Positions 3,408 to 37,095 of a DNA stretch of 64,000 nt are shown piece by piece (position 1 is the stretch's first letter; every line of letters starts with the position of its first letter). The stretch comes from Maribacter polysiphoniae (GTDB taxonomy: Bacteria > Bacteroidota > Bacteroidia > Flavobacteriales > Flavobacteriaceae): contig NZ_QGGQ01000005.1 of NCBI RefSeq assembly GCF_003148665.1, positions 62,001 through 126,000 on the forward strand, given 5' to 3'. A program made the position numbers and the translations under genes. The notes below the pieces were generated by a model, which made no database searches, was not told the origin of the DNA, and was given only the letters and a program-made list of their open reading frames with translations.

Positions 3408-3450
3408 CAAAGCTAGTGGACTAGGATGGGAAATCGAATGATTTACATCA
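3408..3450 (-). promoter_or_regulatory. FNR-like box with promoter for the AhpD-like/ftsH operon
   Basis: On the reverse strand the palindrome TGATGTAAATCA (3439-3450) is followed by exactly 23 bp and the -7 element TAGCTTTG (3408-3415), a perfect TAnnTTTG. Transcription would start near 3403, about 50 nt before the AhpD-like start codon. The forward strand from this box has no matching -7 element, so the box appears directional. Confidence 0.7.
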
Positions 3451-3639
3451 TGTTGGTACATGGTTTGTTTTGGTTTATTAGGGTAGAATATAAATTTTGC
3501 GATCTATGCCCGTAACTTTGTGGTGATGATGGGTTATTGGGGTAAACCGGATGTATGACATAAGGTTGCCAATCGGTTATTGTTTGATAAAATACCACGG
3601 TAATGCAAATTTGACTACTATTGGAAAGGAGAATACAAA

Positions 3640-4584
3640 ATGAACGCTTTAATGGCTCAAATTTTTAGTGGATCTTGGTTGACCCTATTTGGAAGATTGT
3701 TTTTATATGGCTTTTTGGTCCCTTTTATTTTGGGGATTGAAACAGGGTGTAGTTCCTCAAAAGCGCTAAAGAATGGGCCTTATGTAACTGGTGACGACCA
3801 AATATACGGGCCGACGGTGGAAGAAACAAGGACAGATAGCTTGGGGCTCGATGACCATTTATCGATTTTAAGCAAGGGGCCTACGGAAATCACCACTATT
3901 GACAAAGAGGCTGATTCGTTGTTAAAGATCGTGCCCATCGATGATGGGCAAGAAGTTTGGTCGCCTGAGGTGTTGACCGATACATCCGAATTGCCCGATG
4001 GTTTGGGAACTAAAAGTCCGGTTGCCGATAAGATTGTTGAAAACTATAGGAATGCTAAAAACAAGGAACCCGGAGGTCATTGTTTGGCAGTAAGTAAAAG
4101 GCGCTTTATGAATGCCTATAAGGCGGTTTATGGCCATTCGGTATATAATGACCTACCTGATAATATGGCGACAAAATATTATTCAGCACGTGAGGTTTTC
4201 GATAACCTTTATGTCTCGGCCTCTGGCGTACATAGAGGATGGCGAAGCTTGCCGAGGAAATATAGGGGCAAGGGTAATGCGGGTGCAATCGCATATGCGG
4301 GGATGGGAACCTTGGTCGGTAGGGATGGAATTTGGGGAGGGGAACTCAGACCAGGAGCACCCGTACAGGTTTGGAGGTTCAAGGAGGACTATAAGGATGT
4401 TGTAAAAGGGGTGGATAAAAAGGATTTTGATCCCTATGGACATTCATTTATTTTTATGGGGTATGTACGTAATGAAAAGAATGAGATTGTTGGCATTCGC
4501 ATAGCCGACCAAGGTTTTCAAAGCTATAGGCCCCTTATACCACGTGATTATGAGGTTTGGTGGGCTGTTAACCTCACTATTTGA
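3640..4584 (+). CDS. Exported protein with Cys/His hydrolase-like motifs, unknown function
   Basis: A 314-residue protein with a hydrophobic segment at about residues 15-36 ending in a T-G-C-S-S motif, consistent with a lipoprotein or exported protein, then an acidic Ser/Thr-rich spacer of about 100 residues. The C-terminal domain has a conserved-looking GGHCLAVSK motif and a later YGHSFIFMGY motif. Cys followed by His in this order is what NlpC/P60 or CHAP-type cysteine hydrolases show, but I cannot name a family. A candidate promoter, TAACTTTG, lies near 3510-3517. The next gene downstream is similar in layout, and the pair may work together. Confidence 0.6.
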   Translation: MNALMAQIFSGSWLTLFGRLFLYGFLVPFILGIETGCSSSKALKNGPYVTGDDQIYGPTVEETRTDSLGLDDHLSILSKGPTEITTIDKEADSLLKIVPIDDGQEVWSPEVLTDTSELPDGLGTKSPVADKIVENYRNAKNKEPGGHCLAVSKRRFMNAYKAVYGHSVYNDLPDNMATKYYSAREVFDNLYVSASGVHRGWRSLPRKYRGKGNAGAIAYAGMGTLVGRDGIWGGELRPGAPVQVWRFKEDYKDVVKGVDKKDFDPYGHSFIFMGYVRNEKNEIVGIRIADQGFQSYRPLIPRDYEVWWAVNLTI

Positions 4585-4685
4585 CTTTGTGTATTGCAAA
4601 AGATCCACAAAAGTTTAACATTCTACATAAAATGCAATTCAAATCTATTCGTTACATTCTTAATACATTGATTTAAAAGAACATA

Positions 4686-5459
4686 ATGATATTTTTTCCC
4701 CTGTTAATGCTTTTTACACTTCATAATGACCTGTTTTTAAAAGTTGAGCCCTTACGCGAGGATGTTTTTACAAACAAGATATGGCTTGATCCAATAGGAA
4801 CCCAAGGGGAGAACGAGGGAGCCATACATGATTGGGCTGTTAACCCGGATACCCTTTCCTATGACGATGCCAAAACCAACATTGGGGAGCTACGAAAAAA
4901 CTTGGGAGAACGTTTTCGACAGGGACAAATTTCGATGGAAGGGATAAAGAACGAATTCACTACGCACTTGGTTGATGGTTTAATTCCACATTGGTACGGT
5001 ACCCCATGGAGTTTTGGGGGGCATACGGCCATACCCAATCAAGGGAAAATAGCTTGCGGTTATTTTATTTCTACCACATTGCGCGATATGGGACTAAAGC
5101 TGAATCGTTATAAATTGGCCCAAAAATCACCTTTGGACGAGGCAATGGCCCTAAGTTGTGGGTCGGAAATCTACAGTGTGGAACAAGAGGACCATGATAT
5201 GGCTTTCGAGGAAATTGACAGCCTTACCCAAGAGGGACTTTATTTTATTGGTTTCGATACAGGGCATGTAGGGTACCTACTAAAAAGGAAAGGTGAATTG
5301 TTCCTGATCCATTCCAATTACCTCATCCCGATATCGGTTTGTATTGAAAGTCTTAAAGATGCACGGGTTTTTAAAAAATTCACCAAATTCCATTTGGTCG
5401 ATATTTCTCATAATGAAATCCTTATACAACGATGGTTGAATAACACCCAGGTCCTATAA
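4686..5459 (+). CDS. Putative NlpC/P60-like exported protein
   Basis: A 257-residue protein with a short hydrophobic N-terminus. The middle holds a YGTPWSFGG segment and then GKIACGYFISTTLRDMG. A GHVGYLL motif and a HSNY motif follow about 85 residues later. A Cys at the head of a helix, then a strand with Gly-His, then a polar residue, is the arrangement of NlpC/P60-type peptidases. This is inferred from pattern only. It lies 101 bp after a neighbour with the same Cys-then-His order. The ATG at 4686 gives a weak signal peptide, so the export route is uncertain. Confidence 0.55.
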   Translation: MIFFPLLMLFTLHNDLFLKVEPLREDVFTNKIWLDPIGTQGENEGAIHDWAVNPDTLSYDDAKTNIGELRKNLGERFRQGQISMEGIKNEFTTHLVDGLIPHWYGTPWSFGGHTAIPNQGKIACGYFISTTLRDMGLKLNRYKLAQKSPLDEAMALSCGSEIYSVEQEDHDMAFEEIDSLTQEGLYFIGFDTGHVGYLLKRKGELFLIHSNYLIPISVCIESLKDARVFKKFTKFHLVDISHNEILIQRWLNNTQVL

Positions 5460-5583
5460 ACCTATTGACTGGTTTAATAAGCGATATCATACCATCTTAG
5501 CATACAATAAACAAACCTAAAAGCGAAACCCACAACCAATGGTATGGGCCCCGCCTTGTTTTAAAGAAATAAAAAACGATATT

Positions 5584-5829
5584 TTAAGCTACTTGGGCCA
5601 AGGCGATAACGTCGCCTGTTTTGGCCGTTTCCCCACGATGTACTTTTATTTCCTTGAGAATTCCCGAGAAAGGTGCAGGTACCTCAAAGGTTACCTTTTC
5701 GGTCTGCACCTCCAAGAGGGTCTCGTCCTTTTCGAAAGCGTCACCAATTTCCTTATACCAAAGTACAACGGAGCTTTCCGCGTCTTCCCCCAATTCTTTT
5801 GGGAGTACGATTTCATTCATTTTTTCCAT
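5584..5829 (-). CDS. Stand-alone lipoyl-domain protein
   Basis: An 81-residue protein consisting only of a biotinyl/lipoyl attachment domain. The modifiable lysine is K45 in the motif TEKVTFEV, followed by the PFSG turn and GDVIALAQ end strand. In 2-oxo-acid dehydrogenase complexes this domain is normally the N-terminus of the E2 acyltransferase and carries the acyl group away from E1. Here it stands alone, 3 bp after the E1beta gene, and no peripheral-subunit-binding or acyltransferase domain follows. It must either work with an E2 core and E3 encoded elsewhere or transfer to another acceptor. Confidence 0.85.
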   Translation of the reverse strand: MEKMNEIVLPKELGEDAESSVVLWYKEIGDAFEKDETLLEVQTEKVTFEVPAPFSGILKEIKVHRGETAKTGDVIALAQVA

Positions 5830-5832
5830 AAT

Positions 5833-6867
5833 TCAAACTGTAATCATGTTTTCCACCGCGTTAATGATATCCTGTGCATCAGGTATTACATATTTTTCCA
5901 ATACCCTGCTATAGGGAATAGGAACATCCGGGATGGCCAAACGGACTATAGGGGACTTCAGATGATGGAAGCCTTCAGAGGCCATGATTGCACTTATTTC
6001 GGCGGTAATTCCATACGATAGGTAATCCTCGTCGACGACGACCAAACGATTGGTTTTGGCAACGGATTTCAATAGGGTTTCCTTATCGATGGGTTTTATG
6101 GATCGTAAGTCGATAACCTCTGCATCAATACCTCTTTCTGCCAACTTTCCTGCGGCATTAAGAGCCTCAATGGTCATCATCTGCACTCCAACAATGGTGA
6201 CATCCTTACCTTCACGTACCACTTTGGCCTTATTTAAGGGAATGGTATAGGCATCTTCAGGAACGGGTCCTAACGAGGCCTGCAATTGATCCATCCAACC
6301 TAAACCTTGAAGTGTTTTATGAAACATGAACACAACGGGATTGTCATCACGTATGGCTGCAATCAACATTCCTTTGATATCTTCAGGGAAGGTAGGTGCC
6401 ACAACTTTCATGCCTGGCAAATGCCCAAAACTGGCATATAAGGTCTGGGAGTGTTGTGCGGCATCACTATAGCCACCACCAACACCGGTCAATAGTACAA
6501 TGGGTAACTTTACGTTGCCCCCACTCATATAATGTATTTTGGCCATGTGGTTATAGATTTGATCCATGACCACACCATGAAAATCGACGAACATCAATTC
6601 TACCACAGGTCGTAATCCTGCAGCGGCAGCACCAATGGCGGCACCGATGAACCCTGTTTCGGAAATAGGGGTGTCCATGATACGTTCTGGCCCAAACTTG
6701 TCGTATAAACCGGTGGTGGAACCGAATATTCCCCCATATTTTCCGACATCCTCACCCATGACAATGATATTTTTGTCCCTCACCAATTCTTGTTCCAAAG
6801 CCTGTACCATGGCTTTGCTACCGGTCAATTTTCTTATTTTATCCTTTTTTGCTTTTATAGTTTCCAT
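5833..6867 (-). CDS. acoB: 2-oxo acid/acetoin dehydrogenase E1 component, beta subunit
   Basis: A 344-residue transketolase-like subunit. It begins with KAMVQALEQELVRDKNIIVMGEDVG, carries the E1beta signature TPISETGFIGAAIGAAAAGLRPVVE and ends with the typical SRVLEKYVIPDAQDI segment. With the alpha subunit it forms an alpha2beta2 thiamine-diphosphate enzyme that decarboxylates a 2-oxo acid or cleaves acetoin and passes the acyl group to a lipoyl lysine. It lies 38 bp after the E1alpha gene and 3 bp before the lipoyl-domain gene. The substrate (pyruvate, acetoin or branched-chain oxo acid) cannot be decided from sequence; the gene symbol is by similarity. Confidence 0.85.
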   Translation of the reverse strand: METIKAKKDKIRKLTGSKAMVQALEQELVRDKNIIVMGEDVGKYGGIFGSTTGLYDKFGPERIMDTPISETGFIGAAIGAAAAGLRPVVELMFVDFHGVVMDQIYNHMAKIHYMSGGNVKLPIVLLTGVGGGYSDAAQHSQTLYASFGHLPGMKVVAPTFPEDIKGMLIAAIRDDNPVVFMFHKTLQGLGWMDQLQASLGPVPEDAYTIPLNKAKVVREGKDVTIVGVQMMTIEALNAAGKLAERGIDAEVIDLRSIKPIDKETLLKSVAKTNRLVVVDEDYLSYGITAEISAIMASEGFHHLKSPIVRLAIPDVPIPYSRVLEKYVIPDAQDIINAVENMITV

Positions 6868-6905
6868 TTTTCAATCTTTTGTGGTTTTGGCTTTAGCCTT
6901 GAATG

Positions 6906-7895
6906 TTAACAGAAAACATCTTCCAATGCTTCATTAGGTTCAGGGTATTCGCTGTGTATGGCGAATTCATATGCATCATCCACGACTTCATAAACTTTAT
7001 TTTCCAAAGCGCTGATTTCTGCCGGGGTAGCCAAATTTTCTTTCAATAAATGGTTTTTTAATCGCTCTATAGGGTCTTTGCCCCGTAGGGTTGGGACTTC
7101 CTCCTTATTTCGATATAATTCGGGATCCCCTTGGAAATGGCCTAAAAAGCGGTAGGTCTCAATCTCAATGATAGAGGGCCCCCCTCCATTTCGAGCCCTA
7201 TCAACAGCTTCCTTACTTACCTTGTACATTTCCACAGGGTCATTGTCCTTTACCAAGTATCCTTTTATACCATAGGCTTTCGCCCTTATGTCATTTGAAG
7301 GTACACTGGTCGAATTTTTCTTCGCGACCGAGATACCCCATGAATTATCTTCGACGACCAAAATAAAAGGTAGGTTCCAAAGGGCTGCTAGGTTCAGTGA
7401 TTCGTGGAAAGCCCCGGAATTGGCAGCTCCCTCACCAATGAATGCGACTGCCACCCAATCTTCCCCTTTTTTCTTGTTGGCCAAAGCAGCACCCACGGCA
7501 TGCGGAATTCCTGCCCCAACAATACCCCCACAGGAAAATTTCACGGTAGGGTCGAATAAATGCATATGTCCGCCCTTTCCTTTTCCCAATCCGGTTTTCT
7601 TGCCGAAAATTTCAGCAGTCATTTTTTTAAGGTCCACACCTTTGGCAATTGCCTGATGGTGTGGTCGGTGGGTAGCCGTAACCGTATCATCCTTTGTTAA
7701 ATGCACGATCATTGCCGCTGCAGCAGGCTCTTGTCCGTTTGAAAGGTGCATTTCCCCGGGCACAGGGCCTGCACCAATATTGAAGATGGGTTGCTTGCCT
7801 TCCAAATAGGCCTTTTCCATACGTTCTTCAAAATATCGGGAAGTCTTCATAGTCCGATATATCTGAAGAAGGTCGTTCTTGTTATTATTTTTCAT
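6906..7895 (-). CDS. acoA: 2-oxo acid/acetoin dehydrogenase E1 component, alpha subunit
   Basis: A 329-residue thiamine-diphosphate-binding subunit. The TPP motif spans about residues 154-184, from GEGAANSGAFHESLN to VVEDN, and the phosphorylation-loop-like region GKGKGGHMHLFD precedes it. Its length fits the AcoA/PdhA group of two-subunit E1 enzymes. It is first in an operon with the beta subunit and a lone lipoyl domain and is preceded by a FNR-like promoter, suggesting a role in carbon metabolism when oxygen is low. Assignment to acetoin rather than pyruvate rests on general resemblance only. Confidence 0.85.
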   Translation of the reverse strand: MKNNNKNDLLQIYRTMKTSRYFEERMEKAYLEGKQPIFNIGAGPVPGEMHLSNGQEPAAAAMIVHLTKDDTVTATHRPHHQAIAKGVDLKKMTAEIFGKKTGLGKGKGGHMHLFDPTVKFSCGGIVGAGIPHAVGAALANKKKGEDWVAVAFIGEGAANSGAFHESLNLAALWNLPFILVVEDNSWGISVAKKNSTSVPSNDIRAKAYGIKGYLVKDNDPVEMYKVSKEAVDRARNGGGPSIIEIETYRFLGHFQGDPELYRNKEEVPTLRGKDPIERLKNHLLKENLATPAEISALENKVYEVVDDAYEFAIHSEYPEPNEALEDVFC

Positions 7896-7914: not shown

Positions 7915-7957
7915 TAAATGTAGATTCCTTTTGGATAAATTGGAATGATCTAGGTCA
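7915..7957 (-). promoter_or_regulatory. FNR-like box with promoter for the E1alpha operon
   Basis: The reverse strand shows TGACCTAGATCA (7946-7957), then exactly 23 bp and the -7 element TACATTTA (7915-7922). The expected transcription start near 7910 leaves a leader of about 15 nt before the E1alpha ATG at 7895. Confidence 0.7.
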
Positions 7958-11076: not shown

Positions 11077-12300
11077 CTAACTATTTATAGCGTCAATAGG
11101 TTTTAATTTCATCACCGTATAACCGGGGTAAAAGGCCAATACGATGGCCAAGATCAAAACGATTAGGGTTTGAACAACAAATATGTTCGCACTGTTCGAA
11201 AAATACATAATCGATTCTATACCATAATTTTCATAGATTTCTTTTAATTCACCCGTAAAATGAATAGGGTTTTTGTTGAACCATGTTACGACCAGCATTC
11301 CGCCCAAAACCCCTGTAAGACAGCCAATGAGTGCAATCATGATAGATTCCAACATTAGGATGAGGGCCAATAAATGCTTTTTCATTCCAATGGCGATCAA
11401 AATCCCCAATTCGTGTTTTCTTTCGAAAATCATCATGAGTAAGGTTCCAAACAGGCCAAATGAGATAAGAAAATAGAGTACACCGATGATGATATATTGC
11501 CCAGTACTATCAGCTTCTATGAATTGGTCCATTTCCGGGATCATTTCCTTCCAGGTCATTACCTCATATCTATCCGAATCCAGTAATCCCTGTAGGGATA
11601 CCTTCAATTTTTCAAGGTTGGTGTTCTTGTCGGTCAAGATGGAGATCGCAGTCAATCGATTTTCTGCCCCGTACATATATTGGGCCTGTCTTAAAGGGAT
11701 ATAGACAATATTGTTGTTTAAGTCGGGGGAACCTAATTTTATGATTCCTTTTACCTTGAATTTGGCGGCAGCACTGCTTGCATGATATCCTTGGCCCAAG
11801 AGAACCAAGGAGTCGTTTACGCTTAATTTTAATTGTGCCGCCAGTCCTTCCCCTAGGACTATGGCATTTTCATTTTCCGATTCCAGATATGTGCCCTTAC
11901 TGATTTTTTGGTCTAGGTTATTGACTTCTTTTTCTTTGATCGGATCAATGCCCAAAACAAGGACACCTTTGGTTTTTTCCGAATAAGAAGCCAAGGCAAA
12001 TGTGTTCAACCGGGGCATTATGTTTTTGACCTTCGGATTCTTAAGGAGCTTTTGATTGAGTTCCCCATTCTCTTCAAAAGTGTTGTCGATGGACTGTTCG
12101 TCCCAGTAGCCATATTGGTGGATTTGCAAGTAACCAGAGGAATAACCCACAATGTTATGAATCATGTTTTCATACACACCGTCGGTCATAGAACGCGTTG
12201 TGACAGCCAACAAAACGGCAAAAAAAACCGATGTTGTCGTAATGATCGTTCTACGTTTATTGCGCCATATATTCAGCCAAGCCAATTTTAAGAGCATCAT
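11077..12300 (-). CDS. ABC transporter permease, FtsX/LolC-E type (first)
   Basis: A 407-residue permease with the same layout as its neighbour: an N-terminal LAWLNIWRNKRRT motif and helix, a large periplasmic domain, and three C-terminal helices containing HELGILIAIGMKKHLL. The start overlaps the end of the LolA-like gene by 4 bp. The two permeases are clearly related but diverged, consistent with a heterodimeric transporter rather than a recent duplication. Confidence 0.85.
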   Translation of the reverse strand: MMLLKLAWLNIWRNKRRTIITTTSVFFAVLLAVTTRSMTDGVYENMIHNIVGYSSGYLQIHQYGYWDEQSIDNTFEENGELNQKLLKNPKVKNIMPRLNTFALASYSEKTKGVLVLGIDPIKEKEVNNLDQKISKGTYLESENENAIVLGEGLAAQLKLSVNDSLVLLGQGYHASSAAAKFKVKGIIKLGSPDLNNNIVYIPLRQAQYMYGAENRLTAISILTDKNTNLEKLKVSLQGLLDSDRYEVMTWKEMIPEMDQFIEADSTGQYIIIGVLYFLISFGLFGTLLMMIFERKHELGILIAIGMKKHLLALILMLESIMIALIGCLTGVLGGMLVVTWFNKNPIHFTGELKEIYENYGIESIMYFSNSANIFVVQTLIVLILAIVLAFYPGYTVMKLKPIDAINS

Positions 12301-13067
12301 TCCAATTGTTTCATATTTCTGGTGGTGAAGAAATCATCACTTATCGCTTTATCAAATTCAATGTCATTGTAAATGATGACCGTACTGTTTCCTTCCTTGT
12401 CGATCGGTATCATTTCAATCTTTGAGGTAATCTTTCTGCCGCCCAATACTTTAATCTCCGAGGCCTTCATGATGTTCATCATTTCCCCGTCTTCGTCGTA
12501 GAACTCTGCCTTCAATTGGAGGAAATCCTGTTTGTCGATCCACACAATCACTTTTTCCCAGACAATGGCGGCCGAAGGTTTGGGTATCATTTCAATCTTA
12601 TAACAATCTTTTCCATCAATGGTTTCGGAACCTAGGTGCTTGTGGTCGTAGTCCGCTACGGAAGATGCCTCTTTCACAAGGTCGTCATTGGTGAAATCCG
12701 TTCCCATCCAGCTTTGAGACATCATTGAGGGAGGAAGTTTGATCGTTCGTTCTATAGCGGGTATCCAATTCCAGACTTCTTTCATTCGCTTTAAAAAAGC
12801 AATGCCTTTCTCCTTGGCCGGTGAGGTGAGTAAAATCATGGAATATTCATCGCCTTTAGTCCATGTTTTCATGTTCATCTCCCTGTGCCATGTGGGTCTT
12901 ATGATTTGTATACTGATATCTGTTATGGAGGTCCTTCCTCGCATGTTTTCATCGGCTTTTTGAACAATCGCTTTTGCGGATAGGTCTAGGTTTTGTGCCA
13001 TGCCTTCGTGAATTGTCAATAGCATTAAGATCAGGATAGAATGAAATGCGATTTTGGTGATTTTCAT
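12297..13067 (-). CDS. LolA-like outer membrane lipoprotein-sorting protein
   Basis: A 256-residue periplasmic protein with a signal peptide (residues 1 to about 24, ending near EGMA-QNL). Its body matches the LolA-like family found beside RND and FtsX exporters: an early KADENMRGRTSITDISIQI segment, a conserved WTKGDEYSMILLTSPAKEKG stretch, and an M-S-QSWMGTDFTNDDL motif. It is first in the operon, overlapping the first permease gene by 4 bp. It probably chaperones a hydrophobic cargo released by the ABC exporter. Confidence 0.8.
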   Translation of the reverse strand: MKITKIAFHSILILMLLTIHEGMAQNLDLSAKAIVQKADENMRGRTSITDISIQIIRPTWHREMNMKTWTKGDEYSMILLTSPAKEKGIAFLKRMKEVWNWIPAIERTIKLPPSMMSQSWMGTDFTNDDLVKEASSVADYDHKHLGSETIDGKDCYKIEMIPKPSAAIVWEKVIVWIDKQDFLQLKAEFYDEDGEMMNIMKASEIKVLGGRKITSKIEMIPIDKEGNSTVIIYNDIEFDKAISDDFFTTRNMKQLE

Positions 13068-13156: not shown

Positions 13157-13199
13157 TAAATTTATGAAGTTCCCTTTACGTTTTAAATGACCTTAGTCA
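13157..13199 (-). promoter_or_regulatory. FNR-like box with promoter for the LolA-like/ABC exporter operon
   Basis: Reverse strand: TGACTAAGGTCA (13188-13199), 23 bp, then TAAATTTA (13157-13164). The expected start near 13152 gives a leader of about 85 nt. A second box 20 bp away serves the opposite direction, so this intergenic region holds back-to-back promoters. Confidence 0.65.
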
Positions 13200-13219: not shown

Positions 13220-13262
13220 TGATTTTAGTCATTGACCAAAAGGGAGTATTGCTGTAGCTTTA
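13220..13262 (+). promoter_or_regulatory. FNR-like box with promoter for the first usp operon
   Basis: TGATTTTAGTCA (13220-13231), then exactly 23 bp and TAGCTTTA (13255-13262). Transcription would begin near 13268, about 20 nt ahead of the TTG start of the Usp gene. Confidence 0.7.
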
Positions 13263-13286: not shown

Positions 13287-14162
13287 TTGAAAACAATCCT
13301 ATATGTTACCGATTATTCGTTGAATTCTGTGGCCGCATTGAAATATGCACACAAGATGGCGACCCATATGGGAACCCGCTTAGTGGTAACCCATGTATTT
13401 GATTATCCTACAGTTTTGGGTACAGCGGGTTTGGATGAGCCTTTTCCCCATTTAGAGGATAATGCCTTTAGGATACACCGGGCCAAATTGGAAAAATTCT
13501 GTGGGGAACATTTAGGGAGCGGTTATGAAAACCCAAACCTTCAGATAGAGCCGGCAGAAAATACATCGGTCGTTAAGGGAATTATCGCTGTTGCCACCGA
13601 ATGGCATGCCTATTTGATTGTTACAGGTATGAAGGGGGGCAGTGCATTTCGTGAAATACTTATGGGGAGTACCACAAAACTTCTTATAGAGAAAGGACCT
13701 TGTCCCATTCTGTCCATTCCGGCAGGTACAAGTTATAGGTTGCCCAAAACCATTGTTTACGCCACTGATTTTGAGGAGGAAGATGTATTCGCCATTCGCA
13801 AGCTAGCAGAGATGGCCGAACAATTCGAGGCTGAAATCAAGGTTGTACATATTTCATCCAAGGAGGAATATAAGGGTGAAATGCAAATGCAATGGTTCAA
13901 AGAGATGCTTTTGCAGAAGGTAATCTATGAACATATCGACTTTGAATTGCTTTTTTCAAAGGATGTCTTTGAAACACTTCGATTATATATTGGCAAGTCG
14001 AATGCAGATCTAATCGTGATGTTGGAAAGGGAAAAGGCAGGTTTCATCAATAAATGGTTCCATCAGGATTTGGTTAAAAAAATGGAATCATATGGTAAAG
14101 TCCCCCTCTTAAGTATGAGGGGAAGCCACCATCAGCTCTTTTATTTTAAAAAAGCACTTTAA
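13287..14162 (+). CDS. Universal stress protein, tandem UspA domains
   Basis: A 291-residue protein with two Usp domains. The first opens with TILYVTDYSLNSVAALKYA and has an ATP-loop-type motif TGMKGGSAFREILMGSTT near residues 117-134. The second opens with TIVYATDFEEEDVF but has a degenerate loop. The reading frame begins with TTG at 13287; its paralogue at 21049-21900 starts at the equivalent residue with ATG, which supports this start. Usp proteins of this type accompany anaerobic energy starvation in many bacteria. It forms an operon with the small membrane protein 11 bp downstream. Confidence 0.9.
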   Translation: MKTILYVTDYSLNSVAALKYAHKMATHMGTRLVVTHVFDYPTVLGTAGLDEPFPHLEDNAFRIHRAKLEKFCGEHLGSGYENPNLQIEPAENTSVVKGIIAVATEWHAYLIVTGMKGGSAFREILMGSTTKLLIEKGPCPILSIPAGTSYRLPKTIVYATDFEEEDVFAIRKLAEMAEQFEAEIKVVHISSKEEYKGEMQMQWFKEMLLQKVIYEHIDFELLFSKDVFETLRLYIGKSNADLIVMLEREKAGFINKWFHQDLVKKMESYGKVPLLSMRGSHHQLFYFKKAL

Positions 14163-14532: not shown

Positions 14533-14575
14533 TGACCTACATCATTTTCAGGCAGACCTTCTTACCTTATTTTGA
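14533..14575 (+). promoter_or_regulatory. FNR-like box with promoter for the HMA-like gene
   Basis: TGACCTACATCA (14533-14544), 23 bp, then TATTTTGA (14568-14575), which keeps the TA and TT positions of the -7 element. The expected start near 14580 leaves a leader of about 20 nt before the ATG at 14600. Confidence 0.6.
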
Positions 14576-15701: not shown

Positions 15702-15744
15702 CAAATGTACTCCGCATACCATCGAATAAGTATGATGAATGTCA
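15702..15744 (-). promoter_or_regulatory. FNR-like box with promoter for the second usp gene
   Basis: Reverse strand: TGACATTCATCA (15733-15744), 23 bp, then a perfect -7 element TACATTTG (15702-15709). The transcription start is expected near 15697, about 16 nt before the chosen ATG. Confidence 0.7.
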
Positions 15745-16031: not shown

Positions 16032-16042
16032 TATTTTCAAAG

Positions 16043-16077: not shown

Positions 16078-16229
16078 ATAAACACAGGGATTTCATCAAT
16101 CTTGTTTCTCAATCTGTTGAATCATAGTATCGCTAATACGATTCAAGCAACCGATCAACATCTTAACTTCATCCTGGTCCTTATTATGATCATCACTGCA
16201 TTGTTGCTATCATGACAATCAATTTTATT

Positions 16230-16265
16230 AAAGAATCCGGAATACCCAAATATCCCGGATTCTTT
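16230..16265. terminator. Stem-loop A of a repeated hairpin pair
   Basis: AAAGAATCCGG (16230-16240) pairs perfectly with CCGGATTCTTT (16255-16265) around a 14-nt loop that can extend the stem by a few pairs. The core 30 nt closely matches the hairpin at 16512-16541: both have GAA-CCGGAA at one side and CCCGG-TTC at the other. It is terminator-like on the reverse strand, with a weak downstream T-run. Confidence 0.55.
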
Positions 16266-16440
16266 GAAGATGTTCTCGCTACCAATTTTCGACTCTGCCG
16301 TGCCTTGTCCAAATCCATTATCGATTTTTTCAAGGTTAAAAAGTCAGATCGGTATTCTAAAACTTCTTCTTTTTCTACGGATTTCGGTATCCCCACGACC
16401 CAAAACCCAAGAATTCATTTTTTCAAGGAACTTGATTATA
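16230..16440 (-). ncRNA. Candidate small RNA or small-ORF transcript, unit 2
   Basis: The interval runs from the start site predicted by the FNR-like promoter at 16445-16487 to the base of an 11-bp stem-loop at 16230-16265. A GTG-initiated frame (16396 to 16193, 67 codons) and a 24-codon ATG frame (from 16418) overlap it, but the stem-loop lies inside the longer frame. Neither frame is recognised, and a frameshifted small gene cannot be excluded. The evidence is promoter plus terminator-like hairpin, not sequence similarity. Confidence 0.4.
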
Positions 16441-16444
16441 GTTT

Positions 16445-16487
16445 CAAAGATAAAGTACATTCCAAGGGGTTGCAATGACCTGTATCA
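16445..16487 (-). promoter_or_regulatory. FNR-like box with promoter for small-RNA unit 2
   Basis: Reverse strand: TGATACAGGTCA (16476-16487), 23 bp, then a perfect -7 element TATCTTTG (16445-16452). It points away from pfkB into a region with no recognised gene, which is why the downstream interval is marked as a candidate RNA. Confidence 0.65.
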
Positions 16488-16511
16488 GTTTCGTCAATTT
16501 TAATAGGAAAA

Positions 16512-16541
16512 GAAACCGGAACATCGGAATGTCCCGGTTTC
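16512..16541. terminator. Stem-loop B of a repeated hairpin pair
   Basis: GAAACCGG (16512-16519) pairs with CCGGTTTC (16534-16541), and an inner ACAT/ATGT stem closes on a TCCG tetraloop of the UNCG type on the reverse strand. The reverse strand continues TTTTCC. It resembles stem-loop A in length (30 nt) and in its CCGG-centred arms. Confidence 0.6.
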
Positions 16542-16720
16542 CAAGAAGTGGATTTCCAATCTGATGTACGCTTACACTGACCTTAATTCAAATTTATCAC
16601 TAAACCCCTACTAAGATTCAAATGGCCTAACAGATTTGTACACCTCTTCTTTTTCATAGGGTCCTGCTTTTTTCCCCTAAAAGACCCATTTCCTTTTCAA
16701 AGAACTTACTATTTTAATCT
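16512..16720 (-). ncRNA. Candidate small RNA or small-ORF transcript, unit 1
   Basis: The interval lies between the start site expected from the promoter at 16726-16768 and the stem-loop at 16512-16541, giving an RNA of about 210 nt. A 24-codon ATG frame (16657 to 16583) with a basic N-terminus lies inside it and is not recognised. The arrangement promoter, about 170 nt, then hairpin with T-rich tail is that of a small RNA gene. No expression evidence is available from sequence. Confidence 0.4.
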
Positions 16721-16725
16721 TGGGG

Positions 16726-16768
16726 CTAAAGTAGTCTGACTATTCGGGCTTTAAAATGACCTAGATCA
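16726..16768 (-). promoter_or_regulatory. FNR-like box with promoter overlapping the pfkB stop codon
   Basis: Reverse strand: TGATCTAGGTCA (16757-16768), 23 bp, then TACTTTAG (16726-16733), a one-mismatch -7 element. The box covers the last codons of pfkB and directs transcription onward into the gene-poor stretch to 15.9 kb. Confidence 0.55.
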
Positions 16769-17826: not shown

Positions 17827-17869
17827 CAAAGTTCTTCGTCTTTCACTGGTTTAACAATGATACAGATCA
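17827..17869 (-). promoter_or_regulatory. FNR-like box with promoter for pfkB
   Basis: Reverse strand: TGATCTGTATCA (17858-17869), 23 bp, then GAACTTTG (17827-17834), which matches the -7 element except for its first base. The expected start near 17822 gives a leader of about 90 nt before the ATG at 17729. The 416-bp gap between pfkB and the S2P gene holds this box and the one at 17931. Confidence 0.6.
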
Positions 17870-17930: not shown

Positions 17931-17973
17931 TGATTCATATCATTTCAAAATTTTAGTGATCATAATACCTTAA
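17931..17973 (+). promoter_or_regulatory. FNR-like box with promoter for the S2P protease gene
   Basis: TGATTCATATCA (17931-17942), 23 bp, then TACCTTAA (17966-17973), a partial -7 match. The leader before the protease ATG at 18146 would be about 165 nt and holds an unrecognised 28-codon ATG frame at 18047-18133. Confidence 0.5.
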
Positions 17974-19299: not shown

Positions 19300-19342
19300 T
19301 GATACAGATCATTTCATGGGATATCTTTCCGAGGTACATTGC
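19300..19342 (+). promoter_or_regulatory. FNR-like box with promoter for dodecin
   Basis: TGATACAGATCA (19300-19311), 23 bp, then TACATTGC (19335-19342). The box is identical in core to the forward-strand sequence of the pfkB box. The expected start near 19347 leaves a leader of about 27 nt. Confidence 0.55.
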
Positions 19343-21920: not shown

Positions 21921-21963
21921 TAAAGGTAATGTTGGCCGAAGGCCCATGAAATGATGTGCGTCA
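21921..21963 (-). promoter_or_regulatory. FNR-like box with promoter for the usp/hydrolase/PRTase operon
   Basis: Reverse strand: TGACGCACATCA (21952-21963), 23 bp, then TACCTTTA (21921-21928). The expected start near 21916 gives a leader of about 15 nt. A second box 20 bp away serves the opposite strand, mirroring the 13.2-kb arrangement. Confidence 0.65.
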
Positions 21964-21983: not shown

Positions 21984-22026
21984 TGATGTAGGTCATTTTG
22001 ATTATGACGGGTGCTGGTTATTTTTG
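21984..22026 (+). promoter_or_regulatory. FNR-like box with promoter for the 74-residue/ArsC-like operon
   Basis: TGATGTAGGTCA (21984-21995), 23 bp, then a perfect -7 element TATTTTTG (22019-22026). The expected start near 22031 gives a leader of about 40 nt. Confidence 0.7.
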
Positions 22027-22731: not shown

Positions 22732-22774
22732 TGATTTAAGTCATTGTTGGAATAAATATTTACACCTAGTTTAC
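22732..22774 (+). promoter_or_regulatory. FNR-like box with promoter for the TerB-like gene
   Basis: TGATTTAAGTCA (22732-22743), 23 bp, then TAGTTTAC (22767-22774), a partial -7 match. The expected start near 22779 leaves about 28 nt before the ATG at 22807. Confidence 0.55.
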
Positions 22775-30355: not shown

Positions 30356-30398
30356 TGATAATTGTCATATTCTTTTACAGCTTTCCATTGTATATTTG
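30356..30398 (+). promoter_or_regulatory. FNR-like box with promoter for hemN
   Basis: TGATAATTGTCA (30356-30367), 23 bp, then a perfect -7 element TATATTTG (30391-30398). Transcription would start near 30403, so the hemN start must be the ATG at 30418, not the upstream in-frame codons. Confidence 0.75.
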
Positions 30399-30417: not shown

Positions 30418-31779
30418 ATGAGCCAACTGATACAGAAATATAATATTCCAGGTCCACGCTATACAAGTTACCCAACAGTGCCATACTGGAATCAGGATAC
30501 ATTTTCTGGTGAAGAATGGAAAAGCACTTTAAAAAAGAGTTTTGACGAGAGCAATGAAAAGGAAGGGATTAGTCTCTATATACATCTGCCCTATTGTGAA
30601 AGTCTGTGCACATTTTGTGGTTGTCATAAACGCATCACCAAAAGGCACGATGTGGAATCACCTTATATAAATTCTGTTTTAAAGGAATGGAAGTTGTATT
30701 GTGATCTCCTTGGTTCAAAACCGATCGTCAAAGAGATGCATTTGGGTGGTGGTACCCCAACATTCTTCTCTCCAGAAAATTTACAACGGTTGATCAATGG
30801 TATTTTTAAACTTGCGCTAAAGGCACCAGATCATGAATTCAGCTTTGAAGGCCATCCGAACAATACCACCAAGGAACATTTACAGGCCTTGTACGATGTT
30901 GGTTTCCGTAGGGTGAGTTATGGGGTGCAGGATTACAATGAAAAGGTGCAACGGGCGATTCATCGGATCCAACCTTTCGAAAACGTTAAGCATGTTACCG
31001 AAGCCGCTCGGGAAATAGGGTATACATCGGTAAGTCATGATCTTATTTTCGGATTGCCGCATCAAACCCTGGAGCATGTTGAGGAGTCTATTTTAAAAAC
31101 CAAGTCGTTACGACCCGATAGGTTGGCATTTTATAGTTATGCCCATGTGCCTTGGTTAAAGGGTAACGGGCAAAGAGGGTTTAAAGATGGGGACCTGCCC
31201 AGTGCAGAAGCCAAAAGGTCACAATATGAGGAAGGAAAAAAACTTTTGACCAAGGTCGGTTATGAAGAAATAGGAATGGATCACTTTGCTTTGAAAAGTG
31301 ATAGTTTGCACCAGTCTATGGTGTCGGGTAAACTGCATCGGAATTTTATGGGGTACACCGCATCCAAAACACAGGTTATGATTGGGTTGGGAGCCTCTAG
31401 TATTAGCGATAGTTGGTATAGTTTTGCCCAAAATGTGAAAAGCCTGGAAGAATACAGGCATTTGGTCGACAATGATGTCATCCCAATTTACAGGGGACAT
31501 ATACTAACTGTGGAAGACATGATCATTAGAAAGCACATCTTGAATCTAATGTGCCGATTTAAAACTTCATGGGGGACAGATGAAACCTACTTTCCTGAGA
31601 TTTCAATGGTTAAGGATAGACTTTTTGAAATGGAACAGGACGGTTTGGTGGCGTTTGGAATAGATGGATTGAGGGTTACAACGGAAGGCCAGCCTTTTAT
31701 TCGTAATATTTGTATGGCCTTTGACGTTCTATTACATAGAAAAGAACCTGAGACCAGATTATTTTCTATGACAATCTAA
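30418..31779 (+). CDS. hemN: Oxygen-independent coproporphyrinogen III dehydrogenase
   Basis: A 453-residue radical SAM enzyme that makes protoporphyrinogen IX without oxygen. The cluster motif HLPYCESLCTFCGCH gives C60, C64 and C67, plus the extra Cys at 69 seen in true HemN. LGGGTPTFFSP and the C-terminal HemN domain follow. The start at 30418 is fixed by the promoter. FNR control of hemN is common because it replaces the oxygen-dependent enzyme in anoxia; haem is needed here for cytochromes. Confidence 0.95.
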   Translation: MSQLIQKYNIPGPRYTSYPTVPYWNQDTFSGEEWKSTLKKSFDESNEKEGISLYIHLPYCESLCTFCGCHKRITKRHDVESPYINSVLKEWKLYCDLLGSKPIVKEMHLGGGTPTFFSPENLQRLINGIFKLALKAPDHEFSFEGHPNNTTKEHLQALYDVGFRRVSYGVQDYNEKVQRAIHRIQPFENVKHVTEAAREIGYTSVSHDLIFGLPHQTLEHVEESILKTKSLRPDRLAFYSYAHVPWLKGNGQRGFKDGDLPSAEAKRSQYEEGKKLLTKVGYEEIGMDHFALKSDSLHQSMVSGKLHRNFMGYTASKTQVMIGLGASSISDSWYSFAQNVKSLEEYRHLVDNDVIPIYRGHILTVEDMIIRKHILNLMCRFKTSWGTDETYFPEISMVKDRLFEMEQDGLVAFGIDGLRVTTEGQPFIRNICMAFDVLLHRKEPETRLFSMTI

Positions 31780-31809: not shown

Positions 31810-32631
31810 ATGAAAAAAATAGTAGTACCCGTAGATTTTTCGGAACAGTCAGGATATGCTTTAAGAGTGGCCGCCTCCTTGGCAAAAAAGCATAAAGCTG
31901 AGATTTTGGCACTCCATATGTTGGAATTGAACCAAGCGATGGTTACTTCCTCAGAGGGTTTTAATCCCGAACAAACGGTGTTTCTCATAAAATTGGCCGA
32001 AAAACGGTTTAAGGAGTTTTTGGACAAGCCCTATCTTAGTGGTGTTGAGATAACACCCATTGTAAAACATTTTAAGGTTTTCAGTGAGGTCAATGATGTG
32101 GCTTCTAAAAATAACGCTGACTTGATTGTAATGGGTTCCCATGGTACTGACGGTTTAAAAGAGATTTTTGTGGGCTCCAACGCAGAACGCGTTGTCCGTA
32201 ATTCCGATATCCCCGTACTTGTTATTAAAAAGGAACATATAAACTTTAAAGCGGAAAAATTCTTGTTCGCCAGTGGTTTCAAGGAAGAAAGCGTCGAGGC
32301 CTTTCAAAAGGCAAAACAATTTGCAGGCATGCTTTCTGCGGAGTTGAAATTGGTTTATATCAATACCCCAGGGGATGATTTTCTGAGTACGAATGATGCC
32401 CATGATAGGATTTCCCAGTTTTTAAGCAAGGCGGGTGTAGATACCAAAGTCGATATTTATAATGACTATAGTGTGGAAAATGGTATATTGAATTACGGTG
32501 ATAAAATCGGTGCCGATATTATAGGTATTCCTACACATGGAAGAAAAGGACTTTCGCATTTCTTTATGGGAAGCATCGGTGAGGATCTTGCGAACCATTC
32601 CAATGTTCCCGTTGTAACATTTAAGATATAG
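31810..32631 (+). CDS. Universal stress protein, tandem UspA domains
   Basis: A 273-residue protein with two Usp domains. Both have convincing ATP loops: MGSHGTDGLKEIFVGSNAERV near residues 116-136 and GIPTHGRKGLSHFFMGSIGE near 238-257. It begins 30 bp after hemN and is followed by a terminator, so it is probably co-transcribed with hemN, though a TAGTTTTA element just upstream could give an extra promoter. It is more distant from the three left-hand Usp proteins than two of those are from each other. Confidence 0.9.
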   Translation: MKKIVVPVDFSEQSGYALRVAASLAKKHKAEILALHMLELNQAMVTSSEGFNPEQTVFLIKLAEKRFKEFLDKPYLSGVEITPIVKHFKVFSEVNDVASKNNADLIVMGSHGTDGLKEIFVGSNAERVVRNSDIPVLVIKKEHINFKAEKFLFASGFKEESVEAFQKAKQFAGMLSAELKLVYINTPGDDFLSTNDAHDRISQFLSKAGVDTKVDIYNDYSVENGILNYGDKIGADIIGIPTHGRKGLSHFFMGSIGEDLANHSNVPVVTFKI

Positions 32632-32808: not shown

Positions 32809-32851
32809 TGACTTTTGTCATATATGAAAGTGGCAGACTTTTTTATATTTG
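32809..32851 (+). promoter_or_regulatory. FNR-like box with promoter for the copper-uptake module
   Basis: TGACTTTTGTCA (32809-32820), 23 bp, then a perfect -7 element TATATTTG (32844-32851). The transcription start would fall at or within a base or two of the ATG at 32857, so the mRNA may be leaderless. Confidence 0.72.
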
Positions 32852-32856
32852 CCCCA

Positions 32857-33319: not shown

Positions 33320-35389
33320 ATGCAAATTGAAATTGGTGTCGTGCCGCAATATACTATTGGGGTTAGGCCCGAACGTTTTATATGCTTTTTGGGGATTCTA
33401 TGCTGTTTGCTGTTTGTAGGCCAGACCCATGCCCAAGAAAAGAAAGTTGAACCGGGCATTGATAGTATTCTGCCCGTAAATTTGGAAGAAGTCATTATTG
33501 TGGCTTCTTATAACAGTACCTTGGAACATAGGTCGCAGCATAAACCGCTCTCAACCCTTGACGAGTATTTGGAGTCTTCGAGAAAGGTGAATATGATCAA
33601 GCGTGGGGCTTATGCCTGGGAACCCGTTTTGAACGATATGTCCTCAGAGCGACTTTCGGTGACCATCGATGGTATGCGGATTTTCGGGGCATGTACCGAT
33701 AAGATGGATCCAGTGACTTCCTATGTTGATGTTTCCAATCTTAAGGAAGTCCATGTTTCAGGGGGTCAACAAGGTGCCGAACAAGGTTCTGTCATCGGGG
33801 GTTCGATTGATCTAAAGTTGGAAAAGAGCGATTTTGTTGAAAAAGGATGGTCTGGTTCTATAGAGACAGGAGGGGAGACATCCAATGCCGCGCGGATTTT
33901 TGGGGGCGAACTCAATTATTCGGATGCCAAATTCTATGTGGACACTGATGCCATTTACCGTAAAGCGGATAATTATTCGTCGGGTGGGGGTGATGAAGTT
34001 GCATTTTCACAATATGAAAAATACAACCTCTCGACCAATGCGGGATATCGGGTCAGTGAAGGAAAGAAGCTCTCGGCCTCATTTATTTTTGACGAAGCCC
34101 GTGATGTGGGCTATCCGGCCTTGCCTATGGATGTTTCATTGGCACGGGCGTATATTGCTTCGGTCAGTTGGTCGCAGAAATCATTCTTGAAGCATTTTAC
34201 CGACTGGGAGACCAAATTGTACGCCAATAAGGTTACCCATGTCATGGATGATTCCAAAAGGCCGGATGTGCCTATCCGGATGGATATGCCGGGATGGAGT
34301 GATACCTATGGGCTTTATACCCAAGCGAATCTAAACCACGAATCCCATCGCCTCTTGCTGAAATGGGATGGGTATTACAACCGATCCTTGGCGGAAATGA
34401 CGATGTACCCCCAAAACCCTGATGAGAATTCCATGTTCATGCTTACTTGGCCCGATGTACGCACATTCAATTCGGGTTTTTATGCCGAGGATATGATCCA
34501 ATTTAAGACGGGTTATTTGAAACTTTCCACGCGCTTGGCAATAAATATGGGCAATGTAGCCGATGAATTCGGGTTGAACAGCCTAAGGATCTTCTATCCC
34601 GATATGCCACAACGTAAGAATCGTTTCTTGAAAAGTGTCTCTGCACAATACTATAAAGACCTGGATAAGTTTCATGTCAATACAGGGCTTTCTTATGGGG
34701 ATAGGGCGCCATCGGTTTCTGAAGGTTATGGATTTTACCTCTTCAATAGTTTTGATAACCACGATTATATAGGTGACCCCGAACTGTCCAATGAGAAGGC
34801 CCTTGAAGCCAATGCCAAGGTTTCGTTTAAAGGGGATAGGTTGAGCACAAGTATCGAAGGCAACTATTTTTTCATGCAGGATTACATATTGGGGGAGGTA
34901 GACCCCACATTAAGTGTAATGACCATTGGTGCCGAGGGGGTAAAGATCTATAGGAATCTTGATCATGCCCATTTGTACAATATTTCATGGGAAAATGAAT
35001 ATGCTATCACGTCGGCATTAAAATGGACAGGAGTGTTGTCTTATCATAGGGGGATTGACAACGACAACCGTAATCTGCCGTTCATAAGTCCATTGGCCTA
35101 CAATTCCGGACTCCAGTATGCACAACACGGGTATACGGGGTCAATAACGATGAAAGGGGCCGCGAGTCAGGAGAATTTTAATCCCGATTTTGGGGAGGAT
35201 AAGACCGATGCATATATGGTTTTTTCCCTTTCCATGGGAAAAAAATTTACGATCGATTCCAATGCACTGTATGTAAAATTGGGCGTGGAGAATATTTTTG
35301 ATGAATATTATTCAACGTATACCGACTGGAAGAATATCCCCCGTATGGGACGTAATTTTTTTATGACCGTATCCTATGCGATCAACTAA
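33320..35389 (+). CDS. TonB-dependent outer-membrane receptor, OprC/NosA-like (copper)
   Basis: A 689-residue receptor with a signal peptide ending near THA-QEK (residue 39), a plug domain and a C-terminal 22-strand barrel ending in MTVSYAIN. The plug carries RLSVTIDGMRIFGACTDKMDP (about 111-131) and then PVTSYVDVSNLKEV. Met/Cys-containing segments at this place are characteristic of OprC/NosA copper receptors, which feed copper to nitrous oxide reductase. The location just before the nos operon supports this. A TonB box near EEVIIVA is plausible. Substrate by similarity and context. Confidence 0.8.
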   Translation: MQIEIGVVPQYTIGVRPERFICFLGILCCLLFVGQTHAQEKKVEPGIDSILPVNLEEVIIVASYNSTLEHRSQHKPLSTLDEYLESSRKVNMIKRGAYAWEPVLNDMSSERLSVTIDGMRIFGACTDKMDPVTSYVDVSNLKEVHVSGGQQGAEQGSVIGGSIDLKLEKSDFVEKGWSGSIETGGETSNAARIFGGELNYSDAKFYVDTDAIYRKADNYSSGGGDEVAFSQYEKYNLSTNAGYRVSEGKKLSASFIFDEARDVGYPALPMDVSLARAYIASVSWSQKSFLKHFTDWETKLYANKVTHVMDDSKRPDVPIRMDMPGWSDTYGLYTQANLNHESHRLLLKWDGYYNRSLAEMTMYPQNPDENSMFMLTWPDVRTFNSGFYAEDMIQFKTGYLKLSTRLAINMGNVADEFGLNSLRIFYPDMPQRKNRFLKSVSAQYYKDLDKFHVNTGLSYGDRAPSVSEGYGFYLFNSFDNHDYIGDPELSNEKALEANAKVSFKGDRLSTSIEGNYFFMQDYILGEVDPTLSVMTIGAEGVKIYRNLDHAHLYNISWENEYAITSALKWTGVLSYHRGIDNDNRNLPFISPLAYNSGLQYAQHGYTGSITMKGAASQENFNPDFGEDKTDAYMVFSLSMGKKFTIDSNALYVKLGVENIFDEYYSTYTDWKNIPRMGRNFFMTVSYAIN

Positions 35390-35438
35390 TGCGATTATAA
35401 TCAATAACACATTTATTACAAAAACCAAATAAAGAAAA

Positions 35439-36296: not shown

Positions 36297-36327
36297 TATA
36301 TAACAATCCAAATAGGGGTTGTTTTAG

Positions 36328-36359
36328 GAGGGGAGTCGATCGGACTTCCCTCTTTTTTT
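36328..36359 (+). terminator. Intrinsic terminator after the copper-uptake module
   Basis: GAGGGGAGTC (36328-36337) pairs with GACTTCCCTC (36343-36352), with one G-T pair, then seven T residues. It ends the copper-uptake operon; the following 207 bp to the rrf2 stop hold no gene I can support. Confidence 0.8.
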
Positions 36360-36566
36360 GTCCCCAAAAAGAGCCTTATAGTTCCATGACGTATTTTATT
36401 GTGGTTTATTTGAAACTAAAATCACCCATAGACCATGGTACCTGTGCATAGGGTTCCCTCAAGAAATGGCTTACCGGTTTGCTTTTCCGAAAGGTTGGTC
36501 AAACGAATTGAATAGCAGAAAGTTATGTCTTTTTTTTATTGGAAAATGAATGATAATAATGTATCT

Positions 36567-36998
36567 TCATAAGGGTAAAAATGATTTTTCGGCTTTTATG
36601 TCATTCGCTAAATCGATTATGGTCTTATGTTCTAGATTGTCCATAAGGTTTTTTCGGTAAGATGCGGCAAAATCATGTAGGGGGCAAGGTCGGTCGCTGT
36701 GGCAATTTTCAATACTCAATAAGCATGAATTGAGTCTATTGTCACCATCGATGACGGTTATGATGTTGATCAGGGGGGTTTTTAAATTCTGGTCGTTCAG
36801 ATAAAAACCACCATTGGGCCCACGGGTAGAGGAAACGATATTGTGCCGGGATAGGTCTTGGAGCAATTTGGAAATATAAGCTTGGGGTACATTAATGGGT
36901 TCACTAATGTTCTTGGCCATTATTTTGTTTGATTCGCTGGCGTTTACCGCCAAATAGAGTACTGCTTTTATAGCGTACTTGGAAGAATTGGATAACAT
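36567..36998 (-). CDS. Rrf2-family regulator with three Cys (NsrR/IscR-like)
   Basis: A 143-residue winged-helix regulator: YAIKAVLYLA at the start, recognition region INVPQAYISKLLQDL, wing RGPNGGFYL, and three C-terminal cysteines C92, C99 and C105 that can hold a Fe-S cluster as in NsrR or IscR. It is transcribed away from the nos operon, with a shared FNR-like box between them. A role as a nitric-oxide-sensing repressor is plausible: similar 14-bp sites occur at its own promoter and before the ric gene. Confidence 0.85.
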   Translation of the reverse strand: MLSNSSKYAIKAVLYLAVNASESNKIMAKNISEPINVPQAYISKLLQDLSRHNIVSSTRGPNGGFYLNDQNLKTPLINIITVIDGDNRLNSCLLSIENCHSDRPCPLHDFAASYRKNLMDNLEHKTIIDLANDIKAEKSFLPL

Positions 36999-37021
36999 AG
37001 AACGTATGGTATTTAGGACAA

Positions 37022-37095
37022 CAAAAATAAAAAGATATTTTTATCCGAAATATGACTAATGTCATTTTTTGGGTAAACCAATAAGAATAATTTTA
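37022..37095. promoter_or_regulatory. Shared FNR-like box with divergent promoters for rrf2 and nos
   Basis: One palindrome TGACTAATGTCA (37053-37064) serves both directions. To the right, 23 bp then TAATTTTA (37088-37095) drives the cytochrome c/nosZ unit. To the left, 23 bp then the perfect TATTTTTG (37022-37029) drives rrf2. The reverse strand also carries GGATAAAAATATCT (37033-37046), a candidate autoregulatory site for the Rrf2 protein between box and -7 element. Confidence 0.75.

Follow-up and report, generated by a model that had tools for sequence, protein, structure and literature searches.

Seventeen short palindromes in one stretch of the Maribacter polysiphoniae genome raise a simple question: why should they recur at one exact distance from a promoter element, and what reads them? 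The stretch (the window) is 64 kb long and covers positions 62001-126000 of contig C5 in a 5.13-Mb genome. An earlier note on its sequence had listed the palindromes, TGA-N6-TCA, as FNR-like boxes, each 23 bp (N23) before an octamer TAnnTTTG or a close variant; all 17 were present where it placed them. From the sequence evidence below, we consider it likely that they form class II promoters used by the bacteroidetal RNA polymerase holoenzyme, that at least two kinds of CRP-family regulator read them, and that one branch, made up of proteins in which a response-regulator receiver is fused to a CRP-type protein, drives a structured small RNA.

A box at a fixed distance from the -7 element

The box itself was modestly enriched, with 37 copies of TGA-N6-TCA in the window against 20.4 +/- 4.3 in shuffled sequence; the chance figure of about 16 per 64 kb offered earlier was of the right order and somewhat low. 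The fixed spacing is the signal, as had been proposed. TGA-N6-TCA-N23-TAnnTT occurred 17 times (9 on the + strand, 8 on the -) against 0.28 +/- 0.47 in 100 dinucleotide shuffles, where the largest count was 2, and every other spacing from 10 to 39 had at most three matches in the window. The octamers had also been described correctly: 17 of 18 begin with TA and all have TT at positions 5-6, the exception being GAACTTTG, which belongs to the box at 17858.

The enrichment extended to the whole genome, where TGA-N6-TCA-N23-TAnnTTTG was found 33 times against 0 in the reversed control, and the broader TGAY-N4-RTCA-N23-TAnnTT 83 times against 5. With the spacing left free between 8 and 38, TGAY-N4-RTCA gave 46 matches against 5 in the control, distributed as N23 in 32, N22 in 3, N24 in 1 and other spacings in 10. 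The claim that the sites lie where promoters should was borne out by 71 TGAY-N4-RTCA-N23-TAnnTT sites, taken from the window and 20 further stretches of the same genome, with open reading frames (ORFs) from a simple gene caller. In 59 of them the next ORF on the same strand began no more than 150 bp beyond the end of the site (median 37 bp), and four had their midpoint within an ORF; for random positions in the same stretches, these proportions were 7.5% and 77%.

Across the family, 199 genomes held 1430 strict sites against 29 in controls, with at least one strict site in 173. In a phylum sample of 395 genomes, at least one strict site was found in 41/41 members of the family, 7/8 from the rest of the order, 40/49 from the rest of the class and 74/297 of the remaining genomes; many single matches outside the class may be chance, because 16 of those 297 have a control match. 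Two genomes of one family outside the class (f47; G459 and G492) greatly exceeded the rest of the out-of-class sample, with 28 and 30 strict N23 sites, and their regulon may be ancient or acquired.

To our knowledge, the action of activators on the bacteroidetal promoter has been little studied. CRP and FNR activate class II promoters from a site that is centred at -41.5 and set off by a fixed 23-bp gap. The accessible text of a study of Flavobacterium johnsoniae describes the unusual sigma factor and promoter of Bacteroidota, with a -7 element at -12 to -5 and a -33 element that is much less evident (PMC6847099). This numbering and the 23-bp gap place the box at -47 to -36 and therefore its centre at -41.5, as the earlier note had held. 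The N23 peak thus puts a site near -41.5 at a fixed distance from the core promoter in the window, the genome and the family. By this geometry the window boxes are class II promoters of the CRP/FNR type, and we predict that they depend on an activator. The same note had taken the missing -33 TTTG as a sign of such dependence, which did not survive: TTTG-N17-21-TAnnTTTG was not enriched genome-wide (230 against 210 in the control), and among TAnnTTTG octamers upstream of ORFs the -33 TTTG was equally rare without a box (1/29) and with one (1/24). We rejected its absence as evidence.

Regulators and flank dialects

Of the FNR label, one half stands: the genome encodes an FNR-like protein and has what looks like a low-oxygen regulon. 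The other half, that all the sites are FNR's own, probably does not, because the number of boxes follows two regulators, the FNR-like protein and the receiver-CRP fusions.

Crp-type helix-turn-helix (HTH) domains gave seven matches in the genome, six of them above the family cut-off. The FNR-like gene (L010; L017:6517-7218) is encoded near cbb3 genes. Three proteins combine a receiver, a cNMP-binding fold and a Crp HTH (Pfam domains), and each of their genes adjoins that of a PAS histidine kinase, two of the three kinases having several PAS domains and a GAF domain. Boxes stand upstream of these kinase ORFs, at N23 and 31 bp away in L016, at N23 and 70 bp away in L018, and, for the third kinase and fusion pair (C18), at N22 and about 430 bp away. 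Among the distinct fusions from the retrieved loci, the phospho-acceptor Asp motif was kept in 21/21 and the conserved Lys motif in 20/21. One recognition helix, ATE[ST]xIR, is common to the FNR-like protein and all three fusions.

The FNR-like protein has cNMP_binding and HTH_Crp_2 domains and matched solved FNR chains at 5e-23 to 4e-22 from query residue 8, its best solved-chain match being another Crp/Fnr regulator (2gau, 7e-25). It aligned with Aliivibrio FNR from the CxxC onwards, keeping the CxxC and the central Cys, and its N terminus is of FNR type by sequence. The third canonical cluster Cys was not present in any of 30 orthologues (the best 30 loci), all of which have Asn there; all 30 carry an extra Cys in GV[FYM]C[VI], possibly a substitute cluster ligand. 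FNR of the E. coli and Aliivibrio type has the recognition helix E-x-x-S-R and reads a TTGAT half-site. Here the helix keeps E and R with Ser replaced by Ile, and the base 5' of TGA is A or C, rarely T; the Ser to Ile change fits a TGA...TCA box without a preceding T. We call the protein FNR-like, and not FNR, because the third cluster Cys and the recognition-helix Ser differ.

Fusions were found in 86 of the 199 family genomes (E <=1e-45) and FNR-like proteins in 125 (E <=1e-30); 118 of the latter were strong, and the seven weak ones, with a best E above 1e-45, were dropped before genomes were divided four ways. Genomes with both regulators had a mean of 13.1 boxes (n = 49), those with FNR only 6.4 (n = 69), those with a fusion and no strong FNR 8.4 (n = 37), and those with neither 0.9 (median 0, n = 44).

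An N23 peak also stood beside the fusion genes themselves. Within 20-kb stretches it reached 80 sites near fusions of the close clade (11 genomes) and 57 near distant fusions (9 genomes), against at most 6 and at most 4, respectively, at any other spacing from 5 to 44. The bases around the core differed by regulator. TT followed the box in 3/54 sites of FNR-only genomes, 57/80 of close-fusion stretches and 33/57 of distant-fusion stretches, and the centre was WWWW in 47/54, 23/80 and 39/57. A pattern that requires G/C at position 5 and A at position 7 averaged 10.3 per genome with a close fusion (12 genomes), 3.1 with other fusions (74) and 0.9 with no fusion (113), and the corresponding controls gave 0.6, 0.3 and 0.4. 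A mixture of two components, fitted without labels to the genome's own 83 boxes, split most stress-cluster sites from the cco, hemN, nos and similar sites, with exceptions that include C5:77704, C5:84732 and C5:56998. Among the N23 sites of the window, TCATT was present in 12 of 13 from 3.4 to 22.8 kb and in 1 of 4 from 30.3 to 37.1 kb. The stress-protein part of the window thus has mostly fusion-type flanks, and the hemN and nos part mostly does not. From flank and centre composition, co-occurrence across genomes and gene position, most boxes between 3.4 and 22.8 kb are probably read by receiver-CRP fusions.

A candidate structured small RNA and the readings weighed

No ORF of note follows the - strand promoters at 16768 and 16487. 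Each opens instead on a stretch of about 220 nt that closes in a strong hairpin; a terminator scan scored the hairpin of small RNA 1 as terminator-like and left that of small RNA 2, with its short U run, unscored. No Rfam family matched within the window at the gathering score. At the DNA level the RNA had matches, several of them short, in 15/299 family genomes, and the present genome is one of the 15. Six of the other 14 supplied seven loci for comparison; each locus had an N23 box, with the octamer about 215-230 nt before the conserved hairpin end. An alignment of 11 sequences, each trimmed to start just 3' of the octamer, gave 46 consensus pairs, 34 of them with compensatory change, and 86.7% of cells paired; 0/500 shuffles scored as high, and slid structures reached at most 54.6% paired.

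The covariance model built from this alignment contains none of the promoter. It found 28 copies in 20/397 family genomes, 17 of them outside the model-building set, and at the model start 27/28 copies, and 16/17 new ones, had a TAnnTT octamer with TGA-N6-TCA 23 bp ahead of it. The sole copy without a box is a tandem second copy (L151), and in the L138 copy the octamer lies 18 nt inside the modelled start and is known to five bases only. All eight RNA-bearing genomes that fell within the fusion survey (G000, G032, G011, G037, G056, G103, G108 and G160) have a fusion, against 86/199 overall. With flanks of about 1.5 kb, some of which overlap, 18/28 loci matched pfkB, stress-protein, M50, kinase or fusion genes, and a fusion gene or part of one lay within three (L152, L154 and L156).

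BoxA antiterminates stable RNAs. The motif G[TC]TC.TTGA occurred in the first 45 nt of 17/28 copies (9/17 new), against 55/20000 random windows, and before 16S rRNA in 38/66 leaders against 21/1061 background windows. An earlier, stricter leader motif had matched 21/66. The 66 usable leaders came from 80 loci of at least 119 Bacteroidota matches; the genome's own rRNA leader was not found on the 7 small contigs scanned (of 12 taken from the genome), and leaders of other Bacteroidota were therefore used. We read the motif as boxA-like because it also precedes 16S rRNA.

Two further observations concern the RNA. After small RNA 2, a third terminator-like hairpin (16046-16077) lies in a weak covariance-model match (16039-16174, - strand, 20.9 bits) that has no N23 box. 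A GGGG run at about nt 35-85, first hairpin included, was present in 15/28 copies against 4.0 expected by shuffling, and is a possible pairing site for any target the RNA may have.

We infer binding, the direction of regulation and its signals as follows. The bacteroidetal housekeeping holoenzyme would serve these promoters, and a CRP/FNR-family dimer on [AC]TGAY-N4-RTCAT, centred at -41.5 beside RNA polymerase, would make the contact upstream. The near-identical core would be read by regulators of at least two kinds. The FNR-like protein, a candidate Fe-S sensor of O2, would take boxes with an AT-rich centre, often followed by TnTT, at hemN, nos, cco and Fe-S repair genes. The receiver-CRP fusions, candidates for phosphorylation by the neighbouring PAS histidine kinase, would act on stress-protein and central metabolism genes through boxes followed by TT, often preceded by C and, in one clade, with a CTAR centre. 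The fusion branch would also drive the RNA of about 220 nt, in which the boxA-like motif near the start, carried by over half of the copies, plausibly guards the untranslated transcript against early termination. More tentatively, and with slightly less than even confidence, we picture a network for hypoxia and dormancy that spans the flavobacterial family. Its FNR-like sensor, with an altered set of cysteines, and its phosphorylatable receiver-CRP fusions, each a FixJ and a FixK joined in a single chain, would share out or contend for a single class II promoter code; the fusion branch would produce a new family of structured, boxA-bearing small RNAs, which resemble rRNA leaders and would be made as cells shut down.

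The readings that we set against this differ in who reads the boxes and in what the boxes and RNAs are. That all boxes belong to the single FNR-like protein, with the fusions acting elsewhere, would agree with the shared recognition helix and with the FNR-only genomes, 67/69 of which have at least two boxes; yet all 37 genomes with a fusion and no strong FNR (5 with a weak match) also have at least two, boxes cluster next to fusion genes, and flank and centre differ by regulator, so that we hold this decidedly unlikely. A looser version, in which both regulators read every box without specificity and descent or local base composition accounts for the dialects, seems to us doubtful. The core and N23 are identical in both sets, the recognition helices are nearly alike and flanks are inherited among related sequences, but TT after the box separates FNR-only from distant-fusion sites (3/54 against 33/57) where the centres differ much less, and the unsupervised mixture separated most stress-cluster sites from cco, hemN and nos. 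CRP/FNR proteins can also repress, and the sites might be operators or DNA-structural elements. This is very improbable: the -41.5 centre at a fixed 23-bp gap is the activating class II position, and an operator would tolerate other positions, yet N22 and N24 accounted for 3 and 1 of the 46 free-spacing matches. The RNA loci, finally, could be decayed genes, or could serve genes downstream as leaders or attenuators, and a stress-protein gene does lie about 0.5 kb downstream of small RNA 2. It has its own box at 15744, however, a hairpin closes both RNAs before the next box, the neighbours vary between genomes (pfkB, stress protein, M50, fusion gene) and compensatory pairs run throughout the element, which makes that account unlikely.

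Several observations weigh against class II promoters shared by two regulator kinds, or against parts of that reading. Six of the 44 genomes with neither regulator still have at least two boxes, up to nine; 5 of the 37 'fusion only' genomes carry a weak FNR match that was not counted; and the genome counts treat related genomes as independent, with kinship, genome size and completeness left in. The 54 sites of the FNR-only dialect set come from 6 of the 69 FNR-only genomes among the matches listed and have a stricter octamer, the nine distant-fusion stretches were hand-picked from 74 genomes, and one window site per group departs from its own group's flank. Sensing of O2 by the FNR-like protein is uncertain because it lacks one canonical cluster Cys. 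The RNA is restricted to 20 of 397 family genomes, and its boxA-like motif to 17/28 copies (9/17 among those new to the model).

Genes behind the boxes and known systems

The promoters and RNAs of the window, with the genes that follow them, are these.

3408..3450, - strand: class II promoter (box 3439-3450, N23, octamer TAGCTTTG at 3408-3415); downstream on the - strand, AhpD/CMD-like ORF 2986-3351 and FtsH-like ORF 1032-3011
7915..7957, - strand: class II promoter; pyruvate dehydrogenase E1 alpha/beta-like ORFs 6906-7895 and 5833-6867
13157..13199, - strand: class II promoter; LolA-like ORF 12297-13067, then LolCE/LolD-like ORFs down to 9154
13220..13262, + strand: class II promoter; universal stress protein ORF 13356-14162
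14533..14575, + strand: class II promoter; small ORF 14600-14875, with a weak HMA match under the Pfam cut-off
15702..15744, - strand: class II promoter with TCATA 3' of the box; universal stress protein ORF 14872-15681, whose ATG at 15681 lies 3' of the octamer
16216..16444, - strand: candidate small RNA 2, about 225 nt, strong terminal hairpin and short U run, fold z -5.7
16445..16487, - strand: class II promoter of candidate small RNA 2
16504..16725, - strand: candidate small RNA 1, about 220 nt and fold z -2.9, with AGTTCTTTGAAA close to the start and a terminator-like hairpin at 16511-16542
16726..16768, - strand: class II promoter of candidate small RNA 1; the PfkB ORF extends with its 3' end into the box
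17827..17869, - strand: promoter with the variant octamer GAACTTTG; PfkB-family kinase 16761-17729
17931..17973, + strand: class II promoter; M50 peptidase-CBS ORF 18146-19237
19300..19342, + strand: class II promoter; dodecin ORF 19374-19580 (PF07311, 2.3e-24)
21921..21963, - strand: class II promoter; universal stress protein 21049-21900, then alpha/beta hydrolase-like and phosphoribosyltransferase ORFs
21984..22026, + strand: class II promoter; ORFs 22071-22295 and 22299-22664 (ArsC-like, under cut-off)
22732..22774, + strand: class II promoter; TerB-like ORF 22807-23205
30356..30398, + strand: class II promoter with the FNR-type flank TCATATT; hemN 30418-31779 (TIGR00538 match above cut-off) and universal stress protein 31810-32631
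32809..32851, + strand: class II promoter with TCATATA 3' of the box, somewhere upstream of TonB-receptor-like ORF 33320-35389
37022..37064, - strand: class II promoter, one arm of a two-way box (TCATATT); Rrf2-family ORF 36567-36998
37053..37095, + strand: class II promoter, the other arm (TCATTTT); cytochrome c 37124-37630, followed on the + strand by fasciclin, clade II-type nosZ 38257-40212 (Sec-type; TIGR04246 match above cut-off), nosL and nosD

The palindrome 37053-37064 is common to the divergent Rrf2 and nos cluster promoters, and the genome has several similar two-way boxes. In L020, the + strand arm of one (2911-2953) faces antisense into a fusion regulator gene (3100-4170, - strand) and the next + strand ORF is 5 kb off; an antisense RNA is possible.

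Over the window and the further stretches, boxed genes fell into two groups. One, of low-oxygen type, includes ccoS followed by a fused ccoN/O near the FNR-like gene (L017), hemN, cytochrome c, the nos cluster, Rrf2, the Fe-S repair protein RIC and a TonB-like protein. The other includes universal stress proteins (13 in all), enolase, pyruvate kinase, PPDK, PfkB, a ClC transporter, an HPF-type ribosome hibernation factor, and ferritin-like and dodecin ORFs. Farther down boxed gene runs come a cation P-type ATPase and phosphotransacetylase/acetate kinase. Going by gene names, the boxed genes probably point to low oxygen and dormancy. Gene content, together with the promoter type, would suit a flavobacterium that denitrifies. 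A beta-CASP nuclease-like ORF (L018 3767-5137, - strand) adjoins a boxed ORF; type VII Cas14 and aCPSF1 models matched it under cut-off.

The box, exactly 23 bp and the octamer make a simple rule that would predict low-oxygen regulons across the whole family, among them regulons with clade II-type nosZ, a remover of N2O. For the receiver-CRP fusion class there is now a predicted target site on DNA, and for the structured small RNA family a strong prior on its promoter and signal. Searches of the open-licence literature turned up neither titles nor abstracts that deal with class II spacing in Bacteroidota, these fusions or this RNA.

Class II CRP/FNR promoters of the E. coli type likewise have a dimer site at -41.5, a fixed spacing to the -10 or -7 element and a related TGA...TCA core; here the -7 element is TAnnTTTG, the half-site is [AC]TGAY without the first T of TTGAT, and the flanks come in two dialects. 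The rhizobial FixLJ-FixK system also leads from a kinase through a receiver to a CRP-type activator of cbb3 and denitrification genes in low oxygen, whereas here receiver and CRP are one protein and the box is common with an FNR-like protein. Universal stress proteins stand under a low-oxygen regulator in the mycobacterial DosR dormancy regulon and the pseudomonad Anr regulon as well; regulators and promoters differ, and the likeness is one of gene content only. E. coli FnrS is likewise a small RNA from an FNR-type promoter; the RNA described here has about 220 nt, several helices and a boxA-like motif.

Within Bacteroidota, the accessible text on BT4338 (MalR) and HcpR of Bacteroides presents both as CRP-family regulators, and according to one figure legend the fusA2 promoter has a -7 element as well as a BT4338 box (PMC6989115, PMC1274295). 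In the same text, the boxes (wwwTATGTTnTAnAACATAwww; GTAACnnnnGTTAC) and the signals (carbon limitation; nitrogen oxides) differ from those proposed here, and it gives no fixed spacing. The class II CRP/FNR promoter is a kind already known; what looks new is its use on the bacteroidetal promoter, its sharing by FNR-like and receiver-fused regulators, and the RNA.

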